Assembly (NCBI RefSeq): GCF_001650905.1
Contig: NZ_LXYG01000017.1
Span: 372,001-436,000 of the forward strand
Source of the DNA: Balneola sp. EhC07
Lineage (GTDB): Bacteria > Bacteroidota > Rhodothermia > Balneolales > Balneolaceae
Reading direction: 5' to 3'
DNA length: 64,000 nucleotides
Positions 10,281 to 34,257 of the stretch are shown piece after piece. A model generated the notes under the pieces. The model was not told the DNA's origin and did not search any database. It was given only the letters and a program-made list of their open reading frames with translations. The translations under genes were made by a program, and so were the position numbers. How positions within the stretch are numbered: position 1 is the first letter of the stretch; the number at the start of each line of letters is the position of its first letter.

Positions 10281-11153
10281 ATTGATATTGGAGGCTCTTC
10301 TTAAAGTTAATTTGTTAGCAGTTTAGTAAAGTTAGTTCAGGGATGGAAATCTGAATTAACAAAAAAGTATTTCTCCGCAATGTTAGGGAGGGAACAAGGG
10401 TGGGTCCGGGAAGGATAAGAATTGTTTGAACCACAGAGAACACAAAGGGGTTGGAGAGTGAACAAGGTTGGGTGAAAGAATGGATGCGAAGATTCTAAAT
10501 CTCCCTTCGAAGGGAGACCGATCGAACACTTGTGTGAGATCAGAGGGATGTTGTGCAGTTTCTAAGCTATTAAACCGCACAACATCCTCCGTCCGCCAGT
10601 CGGCGGACACCTCCTTCAAAGGAGGATTTTTTCTTTTTCAATCGAGATCTCGGGCATTCGCCGCGAGATGATCGTATCCTTTAATAATTTCAGTTTCTCG
10701 AACAACTTCCAACTTACATCGACCTTTAGAATTATTCGCCCCAATAATTCTTGTCGGGAGTTTTTGGTACTGGAGCCTGTGCTGAGGAAGCTCAGTATCG
10801 GTCCAAAAGTACACATGATCAAGTAAATGTACTCACAATACATAAGTAAAGACCTCCTCTGTCTCCTCCTACAACAGGAGGAGGACTCGTTGATAAAAGT
10901 TAGAATCAACTTTGGAATTCCCCTCCTTATTCAAGGAGGGGCGAACTACTCAGAACCAAAGAATCTGTTTCGTAGCCGGGGAGGTCCGTTTCCAACGCAT
11001 AGCATCGAGACCAGATAAAAAGACTTAGCTTAGCACAAGGATATCTACTTTTGTCTTGATATCCGTTCGAAGGGCGGACACCTCCTTCAAAGGAGTATTT
11101 TTTCTATTCCAATCAAGATATCGGGCATTCGCCTGTCTTTGTCGGTAGACAAG
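10281..11153. repeat. Repeat-rich spacer upstream of the arginine operon
   Basis: About 870 bp without a supportable gene. It contains a family B copy (10484-10632) and a family D element beginning ATCTCGGGCATTCGCCG (about 10656-10691, again near 20088). A stretch with GGGAGTTTTTGGTAC (about 10756) matches, in reverse, sequence near 20270. CTCCTCC/GGAGGAGG inverted repeats occur at 10850-10945, and a partial B end at 11070-11105. Short open frames here run through the repeats and are not believable proteins. Confidence 0.65.
10484..10632. repeat. Family B composite repeat, copy B1
   Basis: Core shared with copies near 19820, 24409 and 27960. It begins TTCTAAATCTCCCTTCGAAG, continues through CGATCGAACACTTGTGTGAG to an inverted pair GGATGTTGTGC/GCACAACATCC, and ends in the palindromic CCTCCTTCAAAGGAGG. 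Confidence 0.85.
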
Positions 11154-14291: not shown

Positions 14292-15418
14292 TGGATTTAT
14301 TACCTGTTTATCCCTTGTTTGATGTGGAGCCCGTGAAAGCTAAAGGGAATTATGTTTTCACGGAAGACGGAACCAAATATTTAGATATGTATGGTGGTCA
14401 TGCCGTTATTTCTATCGGACATTCACATCCGCATTATGTGAAACGCATCACTGAGCAAATAAACAAGATCGGTTTTTATTCAAATTCTGTTCCCATCGGA
14501 ATTCAGAAAGAGCTAGCAAAGAAGCTGGGAGAACTTTCCGGATACGCAGACTGGAATTTATTTCTGTGCAATTCAGGGGCAGAAGCCAACGAGAATGCAC
14601 TGAAAATGGCATCTGCACACAATGGAAGAAAGAAAATTCTGGTTTTCGAAAAAGGATTTCATGGTAGAACTTCGCTTGCTGTTGCTGCTACCGACAATCC
14701 TAAGATCTTGTTTCCTGTAAATGAAGGAGCAGAAATTGTTCGACTAAAATTGGAAGATTTTGAGGGTGTTGAAGAAGCTTTAAAACAAGAAGATGTATGT
14801 GCGGTTTTGATCGAGGGCATTCAAGGGATCAGTGGCATTCATGCACCCACTCCTGAATTCCTGAAGCATGTCAGAAGGCTGTGTGATCAAACAAATACGG
14901 TTCTCATTCTGGATGAGATACAATCGGGGTTTGGAAGAACGGGTAAGTTCTTTGCGCATCAACATTCGGGAGTTGAGCCGGATATTATCAGCATGGCAAA
15001 AGGAATGGGCAATGGGTTTCCTGTTGGAGGAATTATCACGCATCCAAAGTTCGAGGCTACATTCGGAATGCTGGGAACAACATTCGGTGGAAATCATTTG
15101 GCCTGTGCAGCTTCTTTGGCGGTGCTGGAAGTGATGGAAAAGGAAAACCTGATTAAGCACGCAGAAGAAATGGGTGAATACCTGATGGAAGAATTGAAGC
15201 AGTTCCCGAAGGTAAAAGAAGTTCGTGGTGCAGGATTGATGATAGGAGTGGAATTCGAATTTGAGATCGCTGAAATGAGAAAGGCATTATTATATAAACA
15301 TCACATTTTTACCGGCTCCTCATCAAATAAAAATACCTTGCGGTTATTGCCGGCTTTGGGAATTGGAAAAAGAGAAACGGTGGATTTTTTAAAAGCTATA
15401 AAGGAAGAATTATCATGA
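14291..15418 (+). CDS. argD: N-acylornithine aminotransferase
   Basis: 375 aa PLP-dependent class III aminotransferase converting the glutamate semialdehyde derivative to N-acylornithine. Seen motifs: CNSGAEANENALK for the phosphate site, ILDEIQSGFGRTG, and SMAKGMGNGFPVGG with the PLP lysine at residue 237. The stop overlaps the next ATG (ATGA). Slightly shorter than Escherichia coli ArgD but complete. Confidence 0.93.
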   Translation: MDLLPVYPLFDVEPVKAKGNYVFTEDGTKYLDMYGGHAVISIGHSHPHYVKRITEQINKIGFYSNSVPIGIQKELAKKLGELSGYADWNLFLCNSGAEANENALKMASAHNGRKKILVFEKGFHGRTSLAVAATDNPKILFPVNEGAEIVRLKLEDFEGVEEALKQEDVCAVLIEGIQGISGIHAPTPEFLKHVRRLCDQTNTVLILDEIQSGFGRTGKFFAHQHSGVEPDIISMAKGMGNGFPVGGIITHPKFEATFGMLGTTFGGNHLACAASLAVLEVMEKENLIKHAEEMGEYLMEELKQFPKVKEVRGAGLMIGVEFEFEIAEMRKALLYKHHIFTGSSSNKNTLRLLPALGIGKRETVDFLKAIKEELS

Positions 15419-16362
15419 AACAGTTTTTCTCAATTGATGATGTAGACGATCTGAAAAGTCTGATCCAAGAAGGATTGGAAGTAAAGAAAAACCCATTTAA
15501 AGAGAAGGGAAGCATCCGAAATAAGTCGATCTGCTTGTTGTTTCTAAATCCAAGTTTGCGAACCAGGTTGAGTTCCCAAAGAGCGGCTCAGAATCTGGGT
15601 GTGGATGTAACTGTTTTTGATGTGGGCGCAGGCGGTTGGCAACTGGAGTTCGCTGACGGAGCTGTCATGAATGGAAACAAAGCGGAGCACGTCAAAGAAG
15701 CAGCACAAGTGATCGGTTCTTACTTTGATCTGGTGGCGATCCGTGCTTTTGCAAAATTGGAAGATCGCGAATCTGATTATTCAGAACAGGTTTTGAGTCA
15801 GTTTCTTAAACATTGTCCGGTGCCGGTGGTAAATCTGGAGTCTTCTACCAGACATCCTTTGCAAGCTTTTGCGGATCTGATCACTATTGAAACTCATAAG
15901 AAGATAGAGAAACCAAAAGTAGTACTGACTTGGGCGCCTCATCCGAGAGCACTTCCTCAGGCGGTGGCGAATTCGTTTTCGTTGTGGACTCAAAAAGCGG
16001 AGTATGATCTTACGATCACTCATCCCGAAGGCTACGAATTAGCTCCTGAATTTTCAGGGAATGCGCATATCGAATACGATCAGGAAAAAGCATTTGAAGG
16101 CGCTGATTTCATCTATGCAAAAAACTGGAGTAGTTATTCGGATTATGGAAAAATACTATCTGAAGATAAAAACTGGATGGTTGATGAGGCCAAAATGAAT
16201 CTCACGAATGACGCTAAATTCATGCACTGTTTGCCCGTTCGCAGAAATGTGGTTGTGAGCGATGCAGTAATTGACAGCGCGAATTCACTGGTAATCGAAG
16301 AAGCAACCAACAGAATTGTTTCGGCTCAAACTATATTCAATAAAATTCTGAAAAATGAGTGA
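15415..16362 (+). CDS. argF': N-acylornithine carbamoyltransferase (argF-prime), predicted succinylornithine type
   Basis: 315 aa of the AOTCase/SOTCase branch. The carbamoyl-phosphate motif is SLRTR (residues 47-51), with HCLPVRR near the C-terminus. The branch-specific stretch MNGNKAEHV has Ala90 where Bacteroides fragilis SOTCase has Pro90 and Xanthomonas AOTCase has Glu92. Published work showed that replacing that Glu with Pro, Ser, Val or Ala turns AOTCase into an N-succinylornithine enzyme. So N-succinylornithine is the predicted substrate (inference). It overlaps argD by 4 bp and argB by 8 bp. Confidence 0.9.
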   Translation: MKQFFSIDDVDDLKSLIQEGLEVKKNPFKEKGSIRNKSICLLFLNPSLRTRLSSQRAAQNLGVDVTVFDVGAGGWQLEFADGAVMNGNKAEHVKEAAQVIGSYFDLVAIRAFAKLEDRESDYSEQVLSQFLKHCPVPVVNLESSTRHPLQAFADLITIETHKKIEKPKVVLTWAPHPRALPQAVANSFSLWTQKAEYDLTITHPEGYELAPEFSGNAHIEYDQEKAFEGADFIYAKNWSSYSDYGKILSEDKNWMVDEAKMNLTNDAKFMHCLPVRRNVVVSDAVIDSANSLVIEEATNRIVSAQTIFNKILKNE

Positions 16363-20723: not shown

Positions 20724-21040
20724 GAATATATGATATTAGAATTCTGCTCATCCACATAATAGCGGTAATGGTAAGCGCTCTGTAAAGGTCAGGCTTATTA
20801 TCGGGATTCCCTAACTTCAAAGGAGGATTTTCTCCTAGACGATTACACGCTCCTGTGCCAACTCTTCCAGAGTTGAATATGATAATTACTCATAAATTGG
20901 GGCATTTAAACTCTGGAAGAGTTAAAAGATCTGCTATTCCTTCACCATCTCGAAGCCGCATTTCTGAAAGAGTTATTTTTACCATTTCCGAATAATACAT
21001 GTAAGGAAGTAATCCCGTTGAAGAGGGCTACAAGTCTTTA
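20724..21040. repeat. Spacer with family A copy and B fragment
   Basis: Holds a B-end fragment (CTTCAAAGGAGGATTTTCTCC, about 20816-20836), family A copy A3 (20860-20923) and the repeat tail 20934-20978 also seen at 20391-20434. No gene. Confidence 0.6.
20860..20923. repeat. Family A inverted repeat, copy A3
   Basis: Arms AACTCTTCCAGAGTT (20860-20874) and AACTCTGGAAGAGTT (20909-20923), starts 49 bp apart. Confidence 0.9.
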
Positions 21041-21619
21041 TTACCAAACGAGAATACCGGTATCGATAATGCTTACAAGCCACCCGATCAAACCAATTGT
21101 AAAGATTATAGCTACAAGAGTATTCAGGAACTTGGTGTCTTTAAATACAGATATAGTAAAAAAAATCAGCCACACACTTAGTGTTCCAAATTGTCCAATA
21201 TCTAACGGGATACCGGTTTCGAAATGTTCCAGAACGCCATCCGCAGCGTCTACAAAAACATAAATAATCCCAAGGATAAAGAAGCGTTTTCTATTAGATG
21301 TGAAATGTTCCCGGAAGTCTACCACTTCTTCTCCCTGAACGGGAAACAAGAGTCCACTCATCAGATAAGTTACGATTGCATAAGCTAGCAGATTGATAAA
21401 ATGGAACATTCGGAAGTCTTCTATGGGAGAGAGCGCAAAGCTGCTTATCCAAATCAAAACTACTGCAAATAACATATTGAAAGTCCATAGTAAATGAACC
21501 CAATACACTTTTGATTGCTTTCGGGTATCCAGTATTAAAGATAATCCGCTCAATAAATGAACTACTGCCAATCCAAGAATGATGGAAATGAAAACAGATA
21601 TGTGCCCGAAAATTGTCAT
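21041..21619 (-). CDS. Hypothetical integral membrane protein, 192 aa
   Basis: Five or six predicted membrane helices. Examples are residues 3-25 (IFGHISVFISIILGLAVVHL), 41-62 (WVHLLWTFNMLFAVVLIWIS), 75-95, 113-128, 147-160 and 165-185. Charged loops face alternately. I do not recognise a family. ATG start. It is followed downstream by repeats and preceded by another minus-strand hypothetical gene, 116 bp away. Confidence 0.7.
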   Translation of the reverse strand: MTIFGHISVFISIILGLAVVHLLSGLSLILDTRKQSKVYWVHLLWTFNMLFAVVLIWISSFALSPIEDFRMFHFINLLAYAIVTYLMSGLLFPVQGEEVVDFREHFTSNRKRFFILGIIYVFVDAADGVLEHFETGIPLDIGQFGTLSVWLIFFTISVFKDTKFLNTLVAIIFTIGLIGWLVSIIDTGILVW

Positions 21620-21735
21620 ATGAAGTAGCTAGTTAAAGAAAGAAGCTAGTGATTCTACATAGAAATCAAAATAAGTTCGTCATCCTTACCTCGATTCAGG
21701 ATTTGTGGAAGTATCAATTTAGATTCAATTATTTA

Positions 21736-22200
21736 CTATAGATCTGAAGATTTTACTGCTTCTCCTTGTTCAACTACGGATGCGCCGCAACACTTCAATA
21801 ACCAACGCAAGCTATCAAAGCCGGAGATGGGAAATCCGACAACTAATATGTAAACATATAAGGTGTTTTCATCAGCAACCTGAGCAGACCACCAAAACCA
21901 ATCACGTCCTTCACCAAACCATCGAACATTCTGAATGCCATCAAGTAGTCTGTCATCATTGTTATCAGGCAATACATTGTTTGTAAACCAGGACTCCAGC
22001 ATCTCATAGCTTTCTGTTGTCAACCAGTCTTCCTTACCTTCGCAAACACTATTTACTGAAAGGATCACAGTAAGGGCTTCAATTGCTTTTTCCAGAACTT
22101 TGGATGCGTTGTTATTGCAACCAACTTCAACTCGCATTAAGGTAGTATCACTACTTTTATCACTCCCAAACAAGAGCCGTTTTAATTCATCATGTGCCAT
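21736..22200 (-). CDS. Hypothetical protein, 154 aa
   Basis: ATG at 22200 (MAHDELKRLLFG) is preferred; an in-frame ATG exists three codons upstream. Soluble, tryptophan-rich in the middle (VRWFGEGRDWFWWSAQVADE), with CC near the C-terminus. No family recognised. Same strand as its neighbours; operon membership unclear. Confidence 0.6.
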   Translation of the reverse strand: MAHDELKRLLFGSDKSSDTTLMRVEVGCNNNASKVLEKAIEALTVILSVNSVCEGKEDWLTTESYEMLESWFTNNVLPDNNDDRLLDGIQNVRWFGEGRDWFWWSAQVADENTLYVYILVVGFPISGFDSLRWLLKCCGASVVEQGEAVKSSDL

Positions 22201-22278
22201 TAGTATCAACTATAAAGTTTAATTTCCAGCCGTTCTAGAGAATACCATTCAGCTGTTTTTGTTATATGCGGAATAGAA

Positions 22279-22671
22279 TTAGTTCTTTTTTGCACGCGCC
22301 ATCCAAATGGCAATAAATGCCCATGCAATCTCTAATGCAGTAACAATTGGTTGACTGGGATCTTCAAAACCGAATCGTATAATTCCAAAAAGACGAGCCA
22401 CACCGGCTGTCAGAAATACAAAGAATAGCATCATTAATGCATAATGTACTCTGCTTTTATCTGCCGCAGACCACATTAAGAAAATAGCCATTCCTAATTC
22501 TAGTCCACCATAAAAAGCAGTTATTTCTACTAAAGTGTTTGGACTATAGTGCGTAAAGCCAACTAAGTCACCTAAAAGCTCAGGTGTAACCAGGAAAGCA
22601 AAAGCATAAACGGCAAGTATCAGCGCACTGATACGCACAAAAATGACAGATTTTTTTTCTAAGTTTTTCAT
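22279..22671 (-). CDS. DUF4345-like four-helix membrane protein
   Basis: 130 aa with four membrane helices. The fold pattern of DUF4345 is seen in SALILAVYAFAFLVTPE, ITAFYGGLELGMAIFLMW, MMLFFVFLTAGVARLFGI and the final EIAWAFIAIW. Function unknown. Lies 13 bp downstream of the antiporter gene on the same strand, so it is probably co-transcribed. Confidence 0.72.
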   Translation of the reverse strand: MKNLEKKSVIFVRISALILAVYAFAFLVTPELLGDLVGFTHYSPNTLVEITAFYGGLELGMAIFLMWSAADKSRVHYALMMLFFVFLTAGVARLFGIIRFGFEDPSQPIVTALEIAWAFIAIWMARAKKN

Positions 22672-22684
22672 AGAATGAAGAAAG

Positions 22685-24160
22685 TTAATTTTTAGAATGT
22701 AAAGATTTCTCTCCTTTTAAAATTCCTCTGATTTCAGTCATTAACTGTTTTTTAGCGAGTATCAAAAGTTTATCGTTAGATCTCATTTCAGTAGTACCCC
22801 TGGGGACGATGAATTTCCCTTCACGGTTTATGATCACGATCAATGCTTTGTCAGGGAAATTCAGATCAACTACACTTTTGCCAACTACAGGATCCTTGCT
22901 TTCGATCATGATTTCCTTTAGTGCACTTTTGGTATCAATGGAAGGTTCAAACTCGATCGGGAATTTTGTTTTTGGCGGAATGGGAGAATCAACTCGGAGG
23001 CGACGAGCAACCCATGGGATAGTCGGTCCCTGAATGATCACCGATGTTACAACTACAAAAAAGACAATACTGAAGATCATCTCCGCATTTTCTACTCCGG
23101 CAACCAATGGGAAGGTCGCCATAATAATAGGAACGGCGCCCCGGAGGCCTGTCCATGAAACCATTAGCTTACTTCGGGCATTGAATCTGGAAAACATCAA
23201 CGACATAAAAACGCTGATTGGTCGTGCGAGCAGGATCAAAACGAGTGCAATTAATAAACCCTGAATAGAAATGGCAATGATCTGTTTCGGAAATACTAGA
23301 AGCCCAAGACTCAGGAACATGGCAATTTGCATAAGCCAGCCCACACCATCAAAAAAGCTGATCAAACTGCGACGATGAATAAAATTTGAATTACCAAGCA
23401 CTAGACCGGCAAGGTAAACGGCCAGAAATCCACTGCCTCCTAAAAGATCCGTTGTAGCGTAGATCAATGGAACAAATGACAAAGTTAGTACAGGATACAG
23501 TCCATCATATTCCAAATTGATCCGGTTGGTAACCCATGTAATTGTTTTTCCGAACAAGTATCCTGCAGCCAATCCAATAGCTATCTGTCGCAGAAAAAGG
23601 AATACTAAAGATAATCCGCTAAACTCAGGCAATGTGAGTAGTTGGATGATGCCGATAGTTAGAAATATAGCTACGGGATCATTAGTGCCGGATTCGAATT
23701 CCATTAATTCCTTCAGACGATATTTAAATCCCATCGCTTTGGAACGGAGAACCGAAAATACAGCAGCGGCATCTGTTGATGATACAATGGCTCCTAATAA
23801 AATCCCTTCAAGCAAGCTAAAGCCAAGTAACCAATATGCGAACGCGCCTACAACAAGGGCACTTATTAAAACACCGAGGGTGGAAAGCGCAATGCCGGGA
23901 GAAATGATAGGACCTACTTTTTTCCATTGTGTATCAAGTCCACCGGAAAAAAGAATATAGATAAGCGCGATGATACCAAGTGATTGTGCCAGCTGATAGT
24001 CATCAAAATACACCCAGTTTAATCCATCAGAGCCGAAAATCATGCCTACACCCAAAAAAATAAGCAAAGCCGGAACGCCGTACCGACTTGCCAGCTTACT
24101 TGAAAAGATGCTGATCAAGAGCAAAGCTGCAGCTGTTAACATGTAGACGGATATGGTCAT
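22685..24160 (-). CDS. nhaP2: K+/H+ antiporter, CPA1 family (NhaP2/CvrA type) with RCK_C domain
   Basis: 491 aa with about 12 membrane helices in the first 390 residues, then a cytosolic TrkA-C/RCK_C-like domain (about 405-485, DLNFPDKALIVIINREGKFI). Exchanger motifs GAIVSSTDAAAVFSVLR and ESGTNDPVAIF carry the conserved ion-pathway acidic residues. Likely exports K+ (or Na+) for H+, relevant for a marine organism. An inverted repeat sits 31 bp before the start codon. Confidence 0.86.
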   Translation of the reverse strand: MTISVYMLTAAALLLISIFSSKLASRYGVPALLIFLGVGMIFGSDGLNWVYFDDYQLAQSLGIIALIYILFSGGLDTQWKKVGPIISPGIALSTLGVLISALVVGAFAYWLLGFSLLEGILLGAIVSSTDAAAVFSVLRSKAMGFKYRLKELMEFESGTNDPVAIFLTIGIIQLLTLPEFSGLSLVFLFLRQIAIGLAAGYLFGKTITWVTNRINLEYDGLYPVLTLSFVPLIYATTDLLGGSGFLAVYLAGLVLGNSNFIHRRSLISFFDGVGWLMQIAMFLSLGLLVFPKQIIAISIQGLLIALVLILLARPISVFMSLMFSRFNARSKLMVSWTGLRGAVPIIMATFPLVAGVENAEMIFSIVFFVVVTSVIIQGPTIPWVARRLRVDSPIPPKTKFPIEFEPSIDTKSALKEIMIESKDPVVGKSVVDLNFPDKALIVIINREGKFIVPRGTTEMRSNDKLLILAKKQLMTEIRGILKGEKSLHSKN

Positions 24161-24190
24161 AAACTTCTTTTAAGAATTGAAACAGATGTG

Positions 24191-24212
24191 TGCATTTTGA
24201 CCTCAAAATGCA
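24191..24212. promoter_or_regulatory. Inverted repeat upstream of the antiporter gene (possible operator)
   Basis: TGCATTTTGA-CC-TCAAAATGCA: perfect 10-bp arms with a 2-bp centre, 31-52 bp upstream of the antiporter start. The placement suits a dimeric repressor site or an mRNA hairpin; nothing further supports either. Confidence 0.4.
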
Positions 24213-24274
24213 TTTATGAAAGAACTTAAAATAGAGAAAAAAATGCTAGGGTATGGAATTGTGAAATTTTAGTC

Positions 24275-24704
24275 GGAGCGTGTTTCCCGACGAACCCATC
24301 CCTGTCCCTTCCCTTCTTCGAGGGAAGAGGACTTCGATAATAACTTCTTAACTGGTTTAAGAGTCTCTCTCCCTAAAGTTAGGGAGAGAACAAGAGTGGG
24401 TCAGTAGATTGATGCGAAAATTCTAAATCTCCCTTCGAAGGGAGACCGATCGAACACTTGTGTGAGATCAGAGGGATGTTGTACAGTTTACAAGCTCAGA
24501 AGCTGCACAACATCCTCCGTCCGCAGGCGGACACCTCCTTCAAAGGAGGATTTTCTCATAAATGAGTACATGTTCCGTGCACCAACTCTTCCAGAGTTGA
24601 ATAGGGTGATTACTCATAAATTGGGGCGTTTATAACTCTGGAAGAGTTAAAAGATCGATTTGGGTTTCCTCTTGTTCTGAAATCCCGTCAGGAATGCGGC
24701 TCTA
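24275..24704. repeat. Long family B copy B3 plus family A copy A4
   Basis: B extension 24275-24400 (GACGAACCCATCCCTGTCCC, then TCTCTCTCCCTAAAGTTAGG) leads to the B core 24409-24556. Family A copy A4 follows at 24584-24648 (arms start 50 bp apart). No gene in this 540-bp spacer. Confidence 0.85.
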
Positions 24705-25241
24705 TTATTTCACCCGATATCTCTTTTGTACAGTTCCGCTTTTTGAAGAAGATACATCCATCAACTCAAGTTGTTGCTCTTCCTTTCCATTACTAAATAA
24801 AGGAATTCCATTTCCAAGCAGAATTGGAATCACTGTAATAGTCATTTCGTTAATCAGATTTGCTTCAAGAAATTTTTGAATTGTAATTCCTCCGTCTATG
24901 TAAAGATGAGTTTTCCCTTCTTTAGTCAGTTTCCGGACAATATCTTTTGGCGCTCCGGATTCGAACCTCACTTTGCCCGATAAATGCTCAGGTGCGGTTA
25001 ATTTTTGGGTGGTCAGTACAATTACTTCGATTCCTTCGTAATACCAATCATCGAAAGTCAAAACTTTTTCATAGGAGTGTCGCCCCATCACAATTGCGTC
25101 TACTGTTGAAATGAACTCACTGTATACTAAACCAATTTTAGCAGCATCTTCATATTCTTTCCTCAGAAGCCATTTGATATCGCCATCCGGTTTTGCGATA
25201 AAACCATCGGCGCTGGTAGCAATATAAACGGAGCATTCCAT
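24705..25241 (-). CDS. Dihydrofolate reductase-like (RibD C-terminal) family protein
   Basis: 178 aa, DHFR/RibD-C fold as in YwjB/YyaP proteins. The start SVYIATSADGFIAKPDGDIKWL, AIVMGRHSYEKVL and HLYIDGGITIQKFL followed by IPILLGNGIPLF are typical. NADPH-dependent reductase of unknown substrate. Stands alone between a repeat spacer and the cassette-like array. Confidence 0.85.
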   Translation of the reverse strand: MECSVYIATSADGFIAKPDGDIKWLLRKEYEDAAKIGLVYSEFISTVDAIVMGRHSYEKVLTFDDWYYEGIEVIVLTTQKLTAPEHLSGKVRFESGAPKDIVRKLTKEGKTHLYIDGGITIQKFLEANLINEMTITVIPILLGNGIPLFSNGKEEQQLELMDVSSSKSGTVQKRYRVK

Positions 25242-25273
25242 ATGTGATCGGATTATTTAGAGAGTAAATGTAA

Positions 25274-25414
25274 TGTAATAATAGAATTTCAACCGATTTA
25301 ACTTAAAATCTCTCTTCTTAATGTTAGAGCTAGAATAGGAGTGGGTTAGATAGTTTAGAATCTCAATCTTTGACGTCATCCTAATAGAGTCCGTTAGAAA
25401 TGCTTGTTATGCCT
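25274..25414 (-). repeat. Degenerate attC-like site 4 (end of array)
   Basis: On the minus strand the clear half is ATTAGGCATAACAAGC then ATTTCTAACGGACTC, overlapping the stop of the 25413 gene. The other half is weak (CGGTTGAAATTCTATTATTAC, 25274-25296). Between them lies a decayed copy of the B extension (CCCACTCCTATTCTAGCTC, then AACATTAAGAAGAGAGA). Confidence 0.5.
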
Positions 25415-26321
25415 AATTTTTATTTCTTCTAAGATAATCAATAAGTTTTCTATCTAAGTTGGAACCTTGAGAATATTTTTCATCAAGTTTATTATTAAAG
25501 GCTTTGAGAAATAATGAATCATTACTTGGTTGAAAAAAATATTCCATCATTTCTTGACTAATATTATGATCATTGTAAACCAATTGATTTGTTACTGGAT
25601 CATAAGAATAGATGATGGTTACTTCATTCTCATCAAATAATGAGTAAGAATTGCCTTCAAATTCTATTCCTAAATCTTGGATTAAATCGTAGCGCAAATA
25701 AAGATCATAGGAATATTTAACAAAAATATCACCGCCATATTCTCGAATATTATTGGTTTCAATCTTTCCATTAATACCTGCATAATTAAAACTGTCATTT
25801 GAACTATCGATGAATTCTAATACTAAAGAAACCTTCCCTGATTCCACGCGAAATACTTTATTTGAAAACAACCAATGTCCAGACCCTCTTCCATAAAGAA
25901 ATTTATATCCAAATAATTTGTGTTGGTCTAAAGTGTTATAAATTCTGAGTTGTGGATACTCATTATGCAAGTATAAATATTCACCAAAAATGATTGATAG
26001 ATTATCATCAATAACATAAAAATTTGTTTCAGAATAATTAGTTCCAATGAATAATAGGTATTCAGACTCAATATCATTGTCTAGATTTATTTTAGTAAGA
26101 TTTAGAAGAGGTTCTTTTTCATCATACATATAAGATTTAGTTGAAACAGCTTCAGAAAAAAATAATTTTCCAAATTCTATAATAAGGCTCTTATCCGATG
26201 GCTGTTCTAACGCTTTTTTCAGCCACTCCTCAGGAACTTGCTCACCAATATTGATTTGAGCAAAAATATTTTGACCAATTAATACTAAGGCAAGTAATAA
26301 TAAGAAAGAAAGCTTATTCAT
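25413..26321 (-). CDS. Hypothetical secreted protein, 302 aa (cassette gene 4)
   Basis: ATG at 26321 (MNKLSFLLLLALVLIGQNIFAQ, a clear signal peptide); a longer frame reaches into the attC-like site and is rejected. The mature part is rich in Asp, Asn and Tyr, without cysteines or membrane spans. I recognise no family. It starts 9 bp after the GTTGTCTTGCC half-site and its stop overlaps the next half-site, as compact cassettes do. AT-rich compared with the arg operon. Confidence 0.68.
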   Translation of the reverse strand: MNKLSFLLLLALVLIGQNIFAQINIGEQVPEEWLKKALEQPSDKSLIIEFGKLFFSEAVSTKSYMYDEKEPLLNLTKINLDNDIESEYLLFIGTNYSETNFYVIDDNLSIIFGEYLYLHNEYPQLRIYNTLDQHKLFGYKFLYGRGSGHWLFSNKVFRVESGKVSLVLEFIDSSNDSFNYAGINGKIETNNIREYGGDIFVKYSYDLYLRYDLIQDLGIEFEGNSYSLFDENEVTIIYSYDPVTNQLVYNDHNISQEMMEYFFQPSNDSLFLKAFNNKLDEKYSQGSNLDRKLIDYLRRNKN

Positions 26322-26329
26322 GATTATTA

Positions 26330-26602
26330 GGCAAGACAACCCTGCGTTTAAGCGGCACAGAGTTTTTTGTTTTTATTGAAGTAACTGAATTGTTTTTATT
26401 GTCACAAGTCTAAATTCTTATCCGGAGTATGTATTCCGACGAACCCATCCCTGTCCCTTCCCTTAAAAAAGGGAAGGGGACTTCGATAACAATTTCTTAG
26501 TTGGTTTAAGAGTCTCTCTCCCTAATGTTAGGGAGAGAACAAGAGTGGGTCAGACTAGCTTGGAAATGAGATAAACTGCAAGGCATGTCCGCAGTATCAG
26601 TA
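26330..26602 (-). repeat. attC-like site 3 with B-repeat insert and damaged half-site
   Basis: The 3' half is good on the minus strand: GTGCCGCTTAAACGCAGG then GTTGTCTTGCC. The 5' half, right after the 26603 gene, reads CTGATAC-TGCGGAC and seems to have lost the AACAAGC...AA part. The loop contains a B extension (about 26416-26553). About 120 bp next to the 3' half (26350-26470) closely match 27745-27868. Confidence 0.6.
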
Positions 26603-27358
26603 CTAATGCACCTTTTGATTTAATTGCCCAAAAACATCATCTAATATTGGAATTAACGTAGAGCAATTTTCTGATAATTCTGTTTTAGTGCTATTATATC
26701 TACTTAAAACTTTTTTATCTATATGTGCATTATCTAGTAAAGTATAAAAATACTCGAATGAAGTTGAGTAATTTTTAGATTGAAGAATTTTACAGTACAA
26801 ATCTACGTGATTATTGAAGTGCTGTGCTTGAAATCGTAGTAGATCACCTAAATTATCTGCGCCCCATTCTCCTTTTTGTGATACTTGTATTAACCACCAG
26901 GCTTTTTGCTCCTTACTAAAACATGGATTTTCTTCAATAAATTGGACGTGATCAATTATAAAATAATCGTCTTCATTCGGAGCAATTACAGGATCATTAA
27001 AATCATAATGAGTGGCTTCAACATTATGGTTATATACTAATTTTCCATCGGCAGCTGCAAATAGAGTATAATAATTAGAAAAAGTGATGAAATCTTTTGG
27101 CATTGATTCCAAAAACATTGAACAATTACGGTCAGTTGGACTTTTTTTTGCGACCTGATACAATGAATCCGTTTTTACAGCTTCTGTTTTTAGCGAGTCG
27201 TATAATACTTTATGAAGGTCAGAGTAAATTTTTTTTAGACTATCCTGAGTTGTAAATATTGATTCCTTTTTTACTTCTTGTTTTTGTTGAGTGCAAAAGA
27301 CAGTAAGAGATGAGAATATAAGTAAGAAAAAAAATCTATAGCTCAACTTGGTTTTCAT
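26603..27358 (-). CDS. Hypothetical lipoprotein, 251 aa (cassette gene 3)
   Basis: ATG at 27358 (MKTKLSYRFFFLLIFSSLTVFC) gives a lipoprotein signal with a lipobox-like TVFC; the upstream in-frame start lies in the attC-like site. The mature part begins TQQKQEVKKES and has a helical, acidic body with three further cysteines. No family recognised. Preceded directly by the GTTATCGGT half-site. Confidence 0.68.
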   Translation of the reverse strand: MKTKLSYRFFFLLIFSSLTVFCTQQKQEVKKESIFTTQDSLKKIYSDLHKVLYDSLKTEAVKTDSLYQVAKKSPTDRNCSMFLESMPKDFITFSNYYTLFAAADGKLVYNHNVEATHYDFNDPVIAPNEDDYFIIDHVQFIEENPCFSKEQKAWWLIQVSQKGEWGADNLGDLLRFQAQHFNNHVDLYCKILQSKNYSTSFEYFYTLLDNAHIDKKVLSRYNSTKTELSENCSTLIPILDDVFGQLNQKVH

Positions 27359-27476
27359 ACCGATAACGATCCTGCGTTTAAGTGGCACGTCACAATTTAA
27401 GATTTTAGTTAAAAGCTTCAAACGAGCATGCGCTGAACTTGATTCAGTGTCCGCTTGAAATGCTTGTTATACTGCC
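27359..27476 (-). repeat. attC-like site 2 (118 bp, best preserved)
   Basis: Minus-strand order: GGCAGTATAAC (R''-like), AAGCATTTCAAGCGGAC (L''-like), a loop containing TGAATCAAGTTCA, GTGCCACTTAAACGC (L'-like), then CGTTATCGG (R'-like). Length and the two imperfectly paired half-sites fit integron attC sites; core motifs RYYYAAC and GTTRRRY are met only approximately. Confidence 0.65.
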
Positions 27477-27482
27477 TGGGAC

Positions 27483-27716
27483 TCATTTTTCAATTTGGGA
27501 TTGAATTTCGGTGGCTTTTTTTATGCATTCAACAAGTGTGACATCAGGATCACCACCAGTTTTTGAAACAATTCTACCAAACAAATCAGAACCTGATACC
27601 TGATATGCACCGTTACTTATTTCTTCAATTTTGAAATACCAACCATCAAGCTTTCCTGCTATAGGGAATCTTAGTTCAACATCAATAGGATTGAATTTTC
27701 TAATCTCCTTTTTCAT
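27483..27716 (-). CDS. Hypothetical small protein, 77 aa (cassette gene 2)
   Basis: ATG directly after the half-site GTTATACTGCCT; stop six bases before GGCAGTATAAC. The cassette therefore has almost no non-coding sequence outside its attC. The product is a small soluble protein (KLDGWYFKIEEISNGAYQVS, then GDPDVTLVECIKKATEIQ). A one-domain antitoxin- or HicB-like fold is possible, but I cannot support it. Confidence 0.65.
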   Translation of the reverse strand: MKKEIRKFNPIDVELRFPIAGKLDGWYFKIEEISNGAYQVSGSDLFGRIVSKTGGDPDVTLVECIKKATEIQSQIEK

Positions 27717-27717
27717 A

Positions 27718-28215
27718 GGCAGTATAACGACCCAGCGTTTAAGCGGCGCAGAGTTTTTCGTTTTTGTTGAAGTAACTGAATTGTTTTTATTGTCACAAGT
27801 CTAAATTCTTATCAGGAGTATGTTTTCCGACGAACCCATCCCTGTCCCGTCCCTTAAACAAGGGAAGGGGACTTTGATAACAATTTCTTAGCTGGTTTAA
27901 GAGTCTCTCTCCCTGATGTTAGGGAGCCTGCCTGCGGTAGGCAGGAGAACAAGAGTGGGTCAGTAGATTGATGCGAAAATTCTAAATCTCCCTTCGAAGG
28001 GAGACCGATCGAACACTTGTGTGAGATCAGAGGGATGTTGTGCAGCTTCCGAGCTATTAAATCGCACAACATCCTCCGTCCGCAGGCGGACACCTCCTTC
28101 AAAGGAGGATTTTCTCTTAAATGAGTACATGTTCCGTGCAACAACTCTTCCAGAGTTGGACATGATTATGAAGTTCTGAACCCTAATCGAGCCCGCTTAA
28201 AGCGCTTGTTATCGC
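27718..28215 (-). repeat. attC-like site 1, oversized, containing B4 and half of A
   Basis: 5' half on the minus strand: GCGATAACAAGCGCTTTAAG, then CGGGCTC. 3' half: GCGCCGCTTAAACGCTGG, then GTCGTTATACTGCC. Between them lie one family A arm (28143-28157), B core (27960-28116) and B extension (27812-27950). The site is about 500 bp instead of about 100. Confidence 0.6.
27812..28157. repeat. Family B copy B4 with single family A arm, inside attC-like site 1
   Basis: Contains B extension, a GCCTGCCTGCGGTAGGCAGG insertion (about 27926-27945), B core, and only the left A arm AACTCTTCCAGAGTT (28143-28157). The right arm is missing. Confidence 0.8.
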
Positions 28216-28733
28216 ACTCTAGGATTATACCATTCAAAATCTTCAATTCTTTGAAATACTATATTTTTAAGCTTGAGTTCGGCAAATACTTGTTTAACCT
28301 TTTTTGTGCAAAAAATTGTTAGTGAGTCATTTGGGATAAAAATATCGCTTCTATCCCAAGTATCTATTTCAAACTGAATTCCGTTAATGAAACCTTTTTC
28401 TTTTGGTCTCAATCTTGAACCACATCTACCTTTAATACAAAAACCAGAATAATTCTCACTGAGTTTTCCACCTATTACAACATCATATGTTCTCCATCCA
28501 GAAATACAAGATGACAGCAATAAAGTTTTTAAGCGGTTAGAAATCAAGAAATTAAAAGGATCTTGAAGCCTGATAACATCATTTTCATAATAACCTTGAG
28601 ATTTTTTAACTGGTAATGGTGAGGCAAGAGAAATGCTGCATTTAAAAAGATCAACATCATTGTATGGCTCAATCACTTCATAAAACAGATCAATGCTCCG
28701 AGTAGAATGACTTAATACATAAAAGTTTGTCAT
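28209..28733 (-). CDS. Hypothetical protein, 174 aa (cassette gene 1)
   Basis: ATG at 28733. The TAA stop is part of the half-site GCGATAAC, so gene and recombination site overlap. Soluble, with five cysteines including CIKGRCGSRLRPKEKGF. The ending (DSLTIFCTKKVKQVFAELKL) vaguely recalls immunity-type proteins such as the DUF1629 group; I cannot confirm that. No family assigned. Confidence 0.65.
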   Translation of the reverse strand: MTNFYVLSHSTRSIDLFYEVIEPYNDVDLFKCSISLASPLPVKKSQGYYENDVIRLQDPFNFLISNRLKTLLLSSCISGWRTYDVVIGGKLSENYSGFCIKGRCGSRLRPKEKGFINGIQFEIDTWDRSDIFIPNDSLTIFCTKKVKQVFAELKLKNIVFQRIEDFEWYNPRVR

Positions 28734-29002
28734 GTGTATTGATTGGGCGCTAAAATAAAATTATCCAAACAAGGATTTTCCGAGTTTGACCGGATAAAAT
28801 CCACAAAACAATCTTAAAATACTAGTAAACAAAGAAGTTAGGATTTGTTCATCCCCTCGTTACAAACGTCTTGTTAGGAATGCAGAGCTGAAACTCCGCC
28901 TTATGGAGGCAGGAGCTTGCCGCACCATATTTCGCAGCAGGGTCACGAAACGAGGTTAACGCGCCTCTTATTCTTTCGGAATTGCGTTAAGCTATTATAG
29001 AT
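28734..29002. other. Spacer with a possible further degenerate attC half-site
   Basis: On the minus strand TTCCTAACAAGACGTTTGTA at 28861-28880 resembles the TAACAAGC half-sites, but no convincing partner is seen. A hairpin CTGCCTCCATAAGGCGGAG-like lies near 28895-28915. No gene. Confidence 0.35.
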
Positions 29003-29650
29003 TTAGTTTGCTATGAAGAAATTCCATTCGATATTGATATTCTCACTTAATTTGAAATCCGTAAGCTTTCCCTTAAATCCATGTATATGATCAACACCGC
29101 AGATAAAAATTCCTTTAGAAATTGGTGATTTCATACAATGGTCATAGATGTTTTTAAGCATCTCAAGTTCTCTTTTTTCGTTAATCAAGAGTTCAGTTTC
29201 ATAACTATTTGAAAGTTTTTTATCATTTATTCCAACTAATGCATTTTGTTCTAATGTCTTTATTCTTTGTACGATTTTAAAGCAATCATCGCTGTTGAGA
29301 TATTCATAGCCAAACTTTTTTATAAAAGAGGCGTGCTGTTTCCATAAATTTGAATATTCTTGATTGATTAGACTAATTTGTTCAGCCCCACTAAATAACT
29401 TACTAAAATCAAATTGATAAGTGTCAACTGGAATGTGTTCAATAGGATGTTTTTTTAAGTAGTAACTAATAGCTATTGCTTCATTTGAAACGGGTGTGTT
29501 TGCATTAACATATATCTCTCTAAAAGTCTTTTTATCTAGCTCTTCGAATATTACTTCTGGTTTAAAACTCTCAATGATTTTTAGCAATTCATTGGGATTA
29601 CATTTTCCATAGTTTTTATGGAATGATGAAATTATCGTGATATTACACAT
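29003..29650 (-). CDS. Hypothetical protein, possibly TraB/PrgY-like, 215 aa
   Basis: ATG at 29650. The start (ITIISSFHKNYGKCNPNELL, then FKPEVIFEELDKKTF) and the end (GIFICGVDHIHGF) recall TraB/GumN-type proteins, which have a histidine near each end and an EELD motif after the first strand. The match is loose. No signal peptide. AT-rich like the cassette genes and on the same strand, so it may belong to the same accessory region. Confidence 0.55.
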   Translation of the reverse strand: MCNITIISSFHKNYGKCNPNELLKIIESFKPEVIFEELDKKTFREIYVNANTPVSNEAIAISYYLKKHPIEHIPVDTYQFDFSKLFSGAEQISLINQEYSNLWKQHASFIKKFGYEYLNSDDCFKIVQRIKTLEQNALVGINDKKLSNSYETELLINEKRELEMLKNIYDHCMKSPISKGIFICGVDHIHGFKGKLTDFKLSENINIEWNFFIAN

Positions 29651-29731
29651 AGTATTTTATTTTAGTATCACCACTGTAACATATTCTATACAAACTATTG
29701 GTTTATTTATTTGTTTGCATTACATCCAATC

Positions 29732-30997
29732 CTACAACTCCAAATCCATCGTCTTTCTTTCGCCATCACGCAAAACAGTAATTGTAGTCAATTGCCCTTT
29801 TTTGAGTTTGTTGAGCATGGTCATGTAGGCGTAAATATCGGCAAGTTCTTCACCGGCAATTCCTACAATAATATCTCCGCCTTGTACCCCGGCGTTTGCA
29901 GCTGCACGACCTTTAGTTACACCCGTGATCTTCATTCCTTCACCTTCATAGCCGTAATCCGGGAGCACGCCTAAGGTTGGTCCTTCTAAACTCATAGACT
30001 GACGTTGTTCACCCGGAGCCTCCACAAAAGCCAGTTCGTCTTTTTGTAGTTCATCCAGTTGCACCATTACCCGCACTAAATGATGAAGTGCCAAAGCTGT
30101 GCCATTCATATTTATATACTCGGTGTCGTCAGAAGGTCGGTGGTAATCGGCATGTGTATCCGTGAAATAATGAAGCACGGGAATATCTTTATAATAAAAA
30201 CTGGTGTGATCACTTGCTCCGGTTCCGTCTTTTACCAAATTCAGATCCAGATCTCCGGTATTGGCAGAATCTATGATGGCTGTCCAGTTTTCAGCGGTTC
30301 CGATTCCGAAGATCATCAATTTTTTATCAACCATTCTACCGATCATATCCATGTTGATCATAGCAAGAGCGTTTTCCAGATCTACTGTTGGATTATCTAC
30401 ATAATAAGCAGAGCCTAGTAAACCCATTTCCTCGCCTGAAAAAGCCAGAAACAAAACATCTTTCTTTGGTCGATTTGCAGAGAAATACTCAGCCAGTTCC
30501 AGCACTCCGGCAGTTCCCGAAGCATTATCATCAGCGCCATTGTGAATGCGTTCTTCCTCTCCGCGGTATAAGGAGCCGAATTCTCCGAATCCCAAATGAT
30601 CGTAATGCGCTCCAATAATGATCAACTCATCAGAGTTCCCGGTTCCTTGTAGTAAACCAACCACATTTTTGGAAAGTAATTTTTCTCCTTCAGCATCATC
30701 TCCTGCATGTGGATTTCTCAACACTGCGGTATTAATGGTGAATTCCTGAAAGTAGGTTTCGTTATCTCCTGCGGGTTCCAAACCAAAATCCCGGAAATGA
30801 TCGGCAATGTAGTTTGCTGCAATAGCTTCGTTAGCGGAACCGGCTTCGCGACCTTGTAGAGAATCACTTGCCAAAAAGGTAATGTGCTTTTCAATATCAG
30901 CGGGAGTAATGTCTCCGGATTGATTATTGCACGCAACAAAAAATGTGAGTGCTGAAAGAATCAAAAATGCAGAGGTGGAATGTATTTTAAGTTTCAT
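29732..30997 (-). CDS. M28 family zinc aminopeptidase-like lipoprotein with PDZ domain
   Basis: 421 aa. Lipoprotein signal peptide with lipobox FVAC at Cys23, so probably membrane-anchored outside the cytosol. M28 metal-site motifs: GAHYDHLGF, HNGADDNASGTAGVLE, FSGEEMGLLGS with the catalytic Glu pair, NMDMIGR, and ASDHTSFYYKDIPVLHYFTD. A C-terminal PDZ-like domain spans about 335-420 (ITGVTKGRAAANAGVQGGDI). It probably degrades peptides in the periplasm. Confidence 0.9.
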   Translation of the reverse strand: MKLKIHSTSAFLILSALTFFVACNNQSGDITPADIEKHITFLASDSLQGREAGSANEAIAANYIADHFRDFGLEPAGDNETYFQEFTINTAVLRNPHAGDDAEGEKLLSKNVVGLLQGTGNSDELIIIGAHYDHLGFGEFGSLYRGEEERIHNGADDNASGTAGVLELAEYFSANRPKKDVLFLAFSGEEMGLLGSAYYVDNPTVDLENALAMINMDMIGRMVDKKLMIFGIGTAENWTAIIDSANTGDLDLNLVKDGTGASDHTSFYYKDIPVLHYFTDTHADYHRPSDDTEYINMNGTALALHHLVRVMVQLDELQKDELAFVEAPGEQRQSMSLEGPTLGVLPDYGYEGEGMKITGVTKGRAAANAGVQGGDIIVGIAGEELADIYAYMTMLNKLKKGQLTTITVLRDGERKTMDLEL

Positions 30998-31552: not shown

Positions 31553-31645
31553 ATCAGGAGCCTTAGGATTAATGGGTAAAGTTAACAGTTTTTTTCGTGT
31601 TTTGATGAAATAGTGCGTAGTTTTACAACCGTAGTTTAACTACAA

Positions 31646-31728
31646 AGGTTAGGGGTGCTTTTGCAAAGTGCAAAGGCTGAGATCACACCCTACTACCTGA
31701 TCCGGGTAATACCGGCGGAGGAAAACCT
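31646..31728 (+). promoter_or_regulatory. TPP riboswitch (THI element)
   Basis: P1 stem AGGTT (31646-31650)/AACCT (31724-31728). Conserved GGGGTGC at 31652-31658, CTGAGATCACACCC at 31677-31690 and ACCTGATCCGGGTAATACCG at 31694-31713, then GCGGAGGAAAACC. These are the diagnostic pyrimidine- and pyrophosphate-sensor segments. It ends about 120 nt before the TonB receptor start, so the receptor should be repressed when thiamin pyrophosphate is plentiful. Confidence 0.96.
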
Positions 31729-31851
31729 GTTCGCTTATCTATTTTTAAGATGCGCTTGTTTCGCCTCCTCTTTTTTAAATAAACTTATAATTTTTGTCGC
31801 GACGCCAAATCTAAAACTACGGCTACCCGGCATTCCTAAAGAAGAGGAACT

Positions 31852-34257
31852 ATGTTTCAACTAATCAAATCATCGCTGATGGTGGCGATCCTAATCACCA
31901 TGCTGTCAACTTTTGCAGCAGCACAAATTCAAATTTCCGGGAAAGTACTGGAAGCTCAGACAAAAGAACCTTTGATCGGAGCCACTGTTCTACAAACCGG
32001 AACCTCTAACGGAGTATCCACAAATACAGACGGTTCTTTTGAGATCGATCTTTTAGATGGCGAAGATAGGTCATTAAGAATCAGTTTCACCGGTTTCAAA
32101 ACTAAAACTGTAACTGTTGTTAGAAGTCAGTCAGGTCTGCAAATTCTGTTGCTTCCGGACACTTATGTTAGCGACGAAGTTCTGGTAGAAGCCACAAGAG
32201 TGGATGAATCCATTCCGGTTACTTTTTCAAACCTTGATAAGGAAGAAATACAAAAAAGGAACCTTGGTCAGGATGTACCTTACTTGTTAAATCTGACTCC
32301 TTCTACTGTTGTGACCTCAGATGCAGGAGCCGGAATTGGATATACGGGAATTCGGATCAGAGGCGTTGATCCGGCTAGAATTAACGTGACCATAAATGGA
32401 ATTCCGGTAAATGATGCAGAATCACACAGTGTGTTTTGGGTGAACCTGCCGGATATTGCTTCTTCCATTGATAACATTCAGGTACAGCGTGGGGTTGGGA
32501 CATCCACAAATGGTGCTGCAGCTTTTGGAGGGTCGATCAATTTACAAACCAGTAGTAATAGTTTAGATCCTTATGCAGAAATAAATACGGGCGTGGGTTC
32601 TTTCAATACTCGTAAAGCCAATATTCAGTTAGGCTCAGGCTTGATGAAAAACGGTTGGAGTTTTGAAGGAAGATTATCTCAAATCACTTCGGATGGTTTT
32701 ATAGATCGAGCTTCTTCGGACCTGAATTCATTTTACCTTTCCGGTTCAAAAAGAGGGAAAAGAAGCTTGCTAAAAGCGGACATTTTTTCCGGTGACGAGG
32801 TTACCTATCAAGCATGGTACGGCGTTGAGGAAAGTGTACTTGAAAGTGGAAACCGTACTTTCAATGAAGCCGGAATGGAAAAATCAGGATCACCTTATCA
32901 AAATCAGGTAGATGATTATGGACAGGATTATTACCAATTACATTACTCTTATAATCTGCAAGATAATTGGTCGTTGAATACTTCGCTTCATTACACAAAA
33001 GGTGCTGGCTATTATGAGGAATACAAAGGCGGAGAAGATCTCGCAGACTATGGTATTACTCCAGCTAATCCAGGCGACCCAACCGAATCAGACCTGATTC
33101 GGAGAAGATGGTTGGATAATGATTTCTACGGAATGGTATTCTCAACAAAGTACACTCATTCTACAAGCTGGAACCTGACTTTTGGTGGAGGATTAAACAA
33201 ATATGACGGTGACCATTTTGGAGAAGTTATCTGGGCGAGATTTGCAGGAAACAGTGAGTTTGAAGATCGTTATTACGATAACAATGCGATCAAAACAGAT
33301 GCTAATGTATACGGTAAAGCGCAGTACTTTTTTAATGAGAATCTAAGTTCATATCTGGATCTTCAGGTTCGTACAATTAGCTATGAATTTGACGGAATCG
33401 ACATTCAGAATAATACAGTAGTTGATATCAGAGATACAGATAACCTCACTTTCTTCAATCCTAAATTCGGGTTGAGTTACACTGTGAATGATGGAAATCG
33501 TCTATTTGCATCTTTTGGGATAGCAAGTAAGGAACCCACTCGTGATGAGTATGTAGAGTCATCAGCAGCAAGTCGCCCAGATCCGGAAACGCTGTATAAT
33601 GTTGAAACAGGATATCGTGGAGATTTCGGGCAATTCTTTGTGGGTGCTTACGGATATGCGATGTTGTACGAAGATCAGCTAGTCGTTACCGGACAGATCA
33701 ATGATGTTGGCGGAGTAGTTCGGGAAAACGTACCGAATAGTTCTAGATTGGGAATAGAATTGGAAGGTGGTGTTTCCATAACATCAAACTTTAGTTGGGC
33801 TGCTAACGCTACATTCAGCAGAAATAAGATCGAAAATTATAATGAGTTTATAGACGATTATGATAATGGTGGTCAGATCGAAAGAAACTATTCAGATACT
33901 GATATAGCGCTTTCACCAAGTATCATTGCTAATTCAATTCTGGGTTTTTCGGAGAATGGTTTGACAACCGAACTGACCACGAAATATGTTTCTAAGCAGT
34001 ATTTGGACAACACTCAAAATGATGCTCGTTCAATCGACCCCTATTTAGTGAATGATCTTAGAATCAGTTATGCATTTACGAACCTGAGTTTTGCAAAGGG
34101 AATCACTGCAAATTTGATGATCAACAACTTGTTGGATGAGAAATATGAAACCAATGGATATACATTTGGCTATGTATTTGGCGGAGAACAACGATTCAAT
34201 TACTATTACCCGCAAGCCGGAAGAAATTTCTTGCTACAAGTGAAGTGGGAGTTTTAG
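31852..34257 (+). CDS. TonB-dependent outer membrane receptor, predicted thiamin (or precursor) importer
   Basis: 801 aa. Signal peptide ends FAAAQ. A carboxypeptidase-like regulatory domain (about 25-110, ISGKVLEAQTKEPLIGATVL) is followed by the plug domain (about 115-230, including RIRGVDPARINVTINGIPVN) and a 22-strand-type barrel ending in aromatic VKWEF. The TPP riboswitch directly upstream indicates that the cargo is thiamin or a thiamin precursor. This link is known for the Bacteroidota outer-membrane thiamin transporters; the substrate here is inferred from regulation. Confidence 0.9.
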   Translation: MFQLIKSSLMVAILITMLSTFAAAQIQISGKVLEAQTKEPLIGATVLQTGTSNGVSTNTDGSFEIDLLDGEDRSLRISFTGFKTKTVTVVRSQSGLQILLLPDTYVSDEVLVEATRVDESIPVTFSNLDKEEIQKRNLGQDVPYLLNLTPSTVVTSDAGAGIGYTGIRIRGVDPARINVTINGIPVNDAESHSVFWVNLPDIASSIDNIQVQRGVGTSTNGAAAFGGSINLQTSSNSLDPYAEINTGVGSFNTRKANIQLGSGLMKNGWSFEGRLSQITSDGFIDRASSDLNSFYLSGSKRGKRSLLKADIFSGDEVTYQAWYGVEESVLESGNRTFNEAGMEKSGSPYQNQVDDYGQDYYQLHYSYNLQDNWSLNTSLHYTKGAGYYEEYKGGEDLADYGITPANPGDPTESDLIRRRWLDNDFYGMVFSTKYTHSTSWNLTFGGGLNKYDGDHFGEVIWARFAGNSEFEDRYYDNNAIKTDANVYGKAQYFFNENLSSYLDLQVRTISYEFDGIDIQNNTVVDIRDTDNLTFFNPKFGLSYTVNDGNRLFASFGIASKEPTRDEYVESSAASRPDPETLYNVETGYRGDFGQFFVGAYGYAMLYEDQLVVTGQINDVGGVVRENVPNSSRLGIELEGGVSITSNFSWAANATFSRNKIENYNEFIDDYDNGGQIERNYSDTDIALSPSIIANSILGFSENGLTTELTTKYVSKQYLDNTQNDARSIDPYLVNDLRISYAFTNLSFAKGITANLMINNLLDEKYETNGYTFGYVFGGEQRFNYYYPQAGRNFLLQVKWEF

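Follow-up and report, generated by a model that had tools for sequence, protein, structure and literature searches.

Integrons are usually described as the association of one integrase, one adjacent attI site and one array of cassettes, and arrays found without an integrase, or CALINs, are commonly explained either as decayed integrons or as the product of off-target insertions. The term CALIN denotes a cluster of attC sites lacking an integron integrase (IntegronFinder, PMC9024848), and the attI site is normally described in cis, beside intI (PMC3053210, PMC12901181); outside class 1, attI sites are poorly described in the literature. Cassettes located outside the main integron are also produced by insertion at attG sites (Loot et al. 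2024, cited in PMC12901181), and attI sequence away from intI is found in the Delta-attI gene cassettes of mobile integrons, where truncated attI pieces lie inside class 1 and 2 integron cassettes (PMC12901181). In the open-access literature, searched both for orphan or multiple attI sites and for Balneola or Gracilimonas integrons, no report of an arrangement like that proposed here was found, most subscription papers and all preprints being outside the scope of the search.

The window analyzed here is a stretch of 64,000 nucleotides (G000:C17:372001-436000) from the 3.6 Mb genome of Balneola sp. EhC07. A sequence-only reading had proposed that it contains a CALIN within a Balneola-like genome. 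The genus was correctly recognized, and the stretch does contain a real integron cassette array with no integrase beside it; a complete integron, defined by an intI adjoining attI, is not present, no IntI match being found at the window locus or in the genome. All genes of the array lie on the minus strand. Its features, from the upstream host gene onwards, are the following:

29732..30997, minus strand: upstream host gene, an M28-type aminopeptidase with a PDZ-like C-terminus (family matches)
29003..29650, minus strand: 215-aa gene between host gene and attI, inserted together with the repeat at 28852-28959
28753..28818, minus strand: orphan attI-like site, head of the array (model R1; conserved module at about 28750-28852)
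28209..28733, minus strand: cassette 1 gene, 174 aa, no family match
27726..28213, minus strand: attC of cassette 1, a canonical stem with a dispersed repeat of about 370 nt in its loop (sequence and fold)
27984..28039, plus strand: whalefall-1 (RF01762) motif within the repeat of the attC loop (Rfam, 42.3 bits)
27483..27716, minus strand: cassette 2 gene, 77 aa, with exactly complementary head (27718-27728) and tail (27466-27476)
27361..27472, minus strand: attC of cassette 2, intact (covariance model R2)
26603..27358, minus strand: cassette 3 gene, 251 aa, lipoprotein-like (open reading frame)
26335..26355, minus strand: L'/R' half of the attC after cassette 3 (pattern match)
25413..26321, minus strand: cassette 4 gene, 302 aa, secreted-protein-like (open reading frame)
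25391..25411, minus strand: R''/L'' half of the last attC (pattern match)

Searches of Pfam, NCBIfam and PADLOC suggested no function for the cassette proteins: that of cassette 3 has no match in any of the three collections, and that of cassette 4 has only a sub-threshold match in Pfam and nothing in NCBIfam or PADLOC. Viral contigs, searched for relatives of cassette 1, contained none.

The half-site motifs on which the sequence-only reading was based are all found where it had placed them, on the minus strand: the R''/L'' halves (TAACAAGC..AAGCGG) at 25391-25411, 27451-27469 and 28193-28211, and the L'/R' halves (CCGCTTAAACGC..GTT) at 26335-26355, 27365-27385 and 27726-27746. For the latter pattern the 64 kb contain three matches, where shuffling predicts 0.00, and the whole genome contains 25, as compared to 2 for the reversed pattern. 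A covariance search of the region and the genome, which had been suggested as a check, was positive: the R2 model, for which 11 attC sites of 90 nt from outside the window were used and pairing was confined to the R and L arms, gives the attC at 27361-27472 a score of 41.5 bits (E=1.2e-9 in the window, 7.0e-8 genome-wide). Altogether, R2 detects one full attC and one weak partial match in the window, and 24 attC-like matches at E<=1 in the genome. The minimum-energy fold of 27361-27472 taken by itself is not the attC stem, and an Rfam search of the window returned no attC match. The attC consensus of the window also flanks the cassettes adjoining intI in Balneola relatives.

The observation that attC-like sites separate the genes is confirmed, with the qualification that the site at 27361-27472 is the only intact one, accompanied by one interrupted by a repeat and by two half-sites. 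For the interrupted site, the predicted fold of the 497-nt stretch at 27720-28216, bottom strand, pairs the R and L arms and places the repeat within the terminal loop (z=-6.67). After gene 26603 the L'/R' half is kept and the R''/L'' half was not found; after gene 25413 the R''/L'' half is kept and the L'/R' half was not found. Positions 26336-26535 are 94% identical to 27727-27926. The sequence CCTAACAAGACG at 28865-28880, evaluated as a further attC, was rejected, being part of a separate palindromic repeat.

Cassette ends could be defined exactly. The head and the tail of the cassette carrying gene 27483, indicated by the earlier reading as the inverse of each other, do match perfectly over 11 nt (GTTATACTGCC/GGCAGTATAAC); the pair TGCCTAAT/ATTAGGCA, proposed in the same way for gene 25413, is real, with the correction that its members are offset by a 3-nt indel. 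Over the 12 scorable cassettes of the genome, head/tail complementarity amounts to 76/108, as compared to 46.2 +/- 5.3 in shuffled sequences (0/5000).

The array resembles a CALIN in its attC-flanked cassettes without a nearby integrase, and differs in its attI-like head, which recurs at fixed loci. Moreover, the default of IntegronFinder 2 is to call a CALIN from two normal-length attC sites upwards, so that this array, in which a single such site is intact, may escape being reported. Describing the locus as a CALIN was accurate as to the lack of an integrase and incomplete otherwise, because the attI-like head, one of many attI sites without intI, had been missed. In comparison with a sedentary chromosomal integron, the attC family and the cassette pool are those of the intI-linked arrays of Balneola relatives, whereas here the attI lies 340 kb from the intI locus and several attI sites are found in one genome. 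The protein encoded by a cassette of the orphan array on contig C15 has a 100% identical counterpart in the G017 main array, and for two further cassettes from outside the main array the identity to main-array cassettes is 68% and 87%.

In most of the intI-containing relatives checked, the core ATANTANTATGTTA precedes the start of IntI homology by 188-216 nt. A model based on sequence alone (R1), trained solely on 11 intI-adjacent attI sites, yields five matches in the genome (E-values of 5e-4 to 5e-12): the main attI, a further site within the main array, and the sites heading the arrays on C18, on C15 and in the window. An intact version exists at the same locus in G053, and the window site shares 93% identity with it over 101 nt. 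The match of the window site to R1 is of the weaker kind (23.1 bits, E=3.0e-4 genome-wide), and a T takes the place of the usual G at the predicted crossover, which immediately precedes TTAGCGCC (28753).

The boundaries of cassette 1 are exact. Its DNA (28753-28188) recurs in another species, G017, in a different array, with 86% identity over 566 nt; the homology begins exactly at TTAGCGCC, the point where other attI sites are cut, and ends in R''/L''. The cassette follows an attI here and an attC in G017, the homology starting at the identical base. The aminopeptidase gene has orthologues in all 8 Balneola genomes, and in G053 141 nt separate its stop from the end of the attI; at this locus G053 carries three other cassettes and other species none, so that the cassettes do not form the conserved syntenic block that would have refuted the earlier reading. 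An attI-like site of its own stands at the head of the array; capture of the array's cassettes by IntI is inferred, on the indirect evidence of the exact boundary and of the differing cassettes in relatives.

The main integron of this genome, located at C17:61-70 kb, 340 kb from the window array, has flanking genes common to G017, G037, G053 and G043, and is collinear with the G017 locus except for a gap, where the sequence passes from position 14937 of concatenated G017 to position 16034, only 17 nt lying in between. In G017 the gap holds intI (14944-15909), while the attI and the first cassette are retained in this genome: the main integron has lost intI through a clean deletion of about 1.1 kb, which left the attI in place. 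The presence of an IntI hidden elsewhere in the genome was rejected, as a TIGR02249 search yielded nothing above 81 bits and the IntI of the close relative G037 found Xer-like matches only; the genome-wide search proposed by the sequence-only reading thus supports an integrase-less array. An intI within an assembly gap is not strictly excluded, the genome being 98.6% complete and in 20 contigs. The same G037 query detects IntI proteins, 68-100% identical, in 6 of the 7 other Balneola genomes, the exception being G058, so that absence of intI from related genomes, which would also have spoken against the proposal, does not apply. A second integrase of the genus, of about 280 aa, was considered as a possible partner and discarded, having no attC and no attI nearby in Balneola.

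Within Balneola, Gracilimonas and a few relatives, 47 orphan attI sites were identified, along with 8 sites featuring an integrase in the intI position. A simple attI pattern selects sites in 18 of 92 Balneolaceae genomes, the reversed pattern giving none, and R1 in 20 of 92; a single genome may contain up to seven attI-like sites. Nearly all orphan sites lie 55-640 nt downstream of a host gene. Grouping them by this gene gives 28 contexts, in 26 of which the site has the direction of the gene immediately preceding it (p=3e-6); the window and G053_C23 sites being one locus, the stricter number of contexts is 27. At orphan sites the match between the head and the tail of the first cassette averages 6.5/8, versus 4.9 in shuffled controls (p=1.6e-7). 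Unlike Delta-attI pieces, the orphan sites serve as landing points on the chromosome, downstream of host genes. One of them, following a phytoene desaturase gene (TIGR02734), is found in five Balneola genomes, its attI ending 142 nt from the stop in the present genome, G017, G037 and G053, and 96 nt in the fifth; neither intI nor an intI remnant is present in any of the five, and the first cassette is different in each. Other sites are shared behind a 186-aa gene, by three genomes, and behind an 831-aa gene, by four Gracilimonas.

We consider it likely that these observations reflect a dispersed integron, in which the window array was built at an orphan attI by IntI acting in trans and is now frozen and decaying. 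At least four cassettes would have been assembled at an attI lying just downstream of, and co-directional with, a housekeeping peptidase gene, by an integrase encoded elsewhere, at the conserved main integron of the genus. One IntI would fill several attI sites in the clade, that of the window among them, and the deletion of intI would have left this array frozen, with its attC and attI sites exposed to decay. The identity of the attC and attI sites, the exact ends of the cassettes, the loss of intI and the varying content of fixed sites are directly shown by the data. Recombination in trans is an inference, not supported by experiment: orphan sites lack intI in every genome having them, and yet their cassettes differ, for which the main-locus IntI acting in trans is the simplest account. 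The signs of decay found in the window array, namely the G-to-T change at the attI crossover, the repeats inside two attC sites and the two attC halves, fit the loss of intI. The type of an orphan attI is not in every case that of the resident IntI, so that integrases no longer present may have filled some of the sites; in G053 the cores are CGCATATTAATATG at the main site, GGATAATATTATG at the peptidase site and GGATAATATCATG at the desaturase site. Read-through transcription of cassettes from the host gene is likewise inferred, from orientation only, and would be weakened at those sites where terminator-like hairpins are found between host gene and attI.

Alternatively, every orphan site may once have been a full integron, whose own intI was later deleted. 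This seems unlikely to us as a general account, even if such a deletion is precisely what is seen at the main site of this genome, and several attI sequence types coexist within one genome. In G018, moreover, some extra attI copies extend towards or into intI, and the intI fragments adjoining them indicate that some orphan sites are relics of whole integrons. At the desaturase site, however, the lack of any intI remnant in five genomes with differing first cassettes implies that the content changed after intI was already absent there. Furthermore, G040 contains a 180-nt attI unit, 98.9% identical to its own intI-adjacent attI, which ends short of the intI start and is located at the crossover of an older attI: copies of attI can therefore arise without intI. 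A second G040 copy starts at the identical base, the 5' boundary TTATATTG being common to both. The attI module thus looks like a unit moving in a cassette-like fashion; how the sites spread is less certain. An extension of the preferred reading, filling in trans, to Balneola and Gracilimonas at large, with one integrase, several conserved attI sites behind co-directional housekeeping genes, cassettes as extras of host operons and an attI module copied around the genome by the integrase, is plausible, and is put forward only tentatively.

A further possibility, insertion of the cassettes at non-classical genomic attG sites without any attI, as in an ordinary CALIN, is disfavoured, and we regard it as very improbable. 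An attG site requires little beyond a short core, whereas the 60-100 nt upstream of these arrays match intI-adjacent attI sites (E from 5e-4 to 5e-12), with no match in the reversed-pattern control. Lone attC sites, such as that at C2:16983, may be of the attG type, and it is well established that cassettes can enter genomes in this way (Loot et al. 2024, cited in PMC12901181); the present case differs in its target, an attI homologue over 60-100 nt rather than a minimal core. Finally, the view that the region merely contains four unrelated genes with dispersed repeats between them, such repeats being indeed present, is already refuted by the exact R'/R'' pairing, the covariance matches, the identical attC family adjoining intI in relatives and the transfer of cassette 1 with exact boundaries.

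We class the window array as being of CALIN type and as belonging to the chromosomal integron of Balneola, and the arrangement with orphan attI sites as a novel integron variant. Many of the integrase-less arrays considered here have a third explanation, in that each begins at an attI landing site of its own; captured genes would thereby become part of host operons, at several places of the genome at once, and tools seeking only intI and attC would miss the organising element. The idea is testable in Gracilimonas amylolytica LA399, a cultured isolate featuring both kinds of site, an intI-linked attI and two orphan ones.

Two genes bordering the array deserve mention. Gene 24705, RibD_C-like, is a possible fifth cassette: its sole relative among the compared loci lies downstream in the G022 orphan array, without clear attC sites around it. 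The 215-aa gene (29003..29650), not found at the corresponding place in G053, shares 31% identity with a gene of the orphan-attI array of G003.

Within Balneolaceae, whalefall-1 (RF01762) is present as a dispersed repeat, with 11 copies in the Balneola sp. EhC07 genome and 42-60 in each of two g6 genomes, and copies are frequently paired in inverted orientation, with a spacing of about 86 nt. To our knowledge, RF01762 is described as a noncoding RNA, with whale-fall metagenomes as its only known source; whalefall-1 may instead be a MITE- or REP-like element, not an RNA gene. Three copies were matched by Rfam in the window:

Window 10497-10552, whalefall-1
Window 24425-24480, whalefall-1
Window 27984-28039, whalefall-1, within an attC loop

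Two attC sites of the array have in common a 200-nt stretch (window 26336-26535 and 27727-27926, 94%), spanning R'/L' plus the same embedded repeat. Such a match makes it probable, as far as sequence comparison can tell, that the repeat-bearing attC was duplicated or, alternatively, that the two sites recombined via the repeat. Another repeat, also found in two other Balneola genomes (G028 and G017), imitates an R'' site:

Window 28852-28959, repeat of about 108 nt, inverted ends CCTCGTTACAAACGTCTTGTTAGG...CACGAAACGAGG

The surrounding region of about 8.7 kb (window 21000-29724), located between the RRM protein and M28 peptidase genes and further containing genes for an antiporter and for a RibD_C-like protein, is missing or mostly different in other Balneola. 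The TonB-dependent receptor-like gene at 31852 is probably a thiamine-type transporter, because it is preceded by a riboswitch, identified by Rfam scan of the window:

Window 31641-31740, plus strand, TPP riboswitch

In G040, a further genome carrying attI sites, an older attI has at its crossover point a unit near-identical to the main attI of the same genome, as if, from the sequence arrangement, attI had moved in cassette fashion:

G040 C2:2943-3188 (locus L199), 180-nt attI unit

Six Balneola genomes, but not that of Balneola sp. EhC07, encode a second tyrosine recombinase, about 280-335 aa long, which resembles IntI at both ends and is missing about 55 middle residues:

G017 C3:357946
G037 C4:22772
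G053 C19:21195
G043 C1:2286827
G028 C33:386947
G058 C17:11797
Locus L129:862-1695

In G018, likewise an attI-carrying genome, a relative of this recombinase directly follows an orphan attI, one without adjacent intI.
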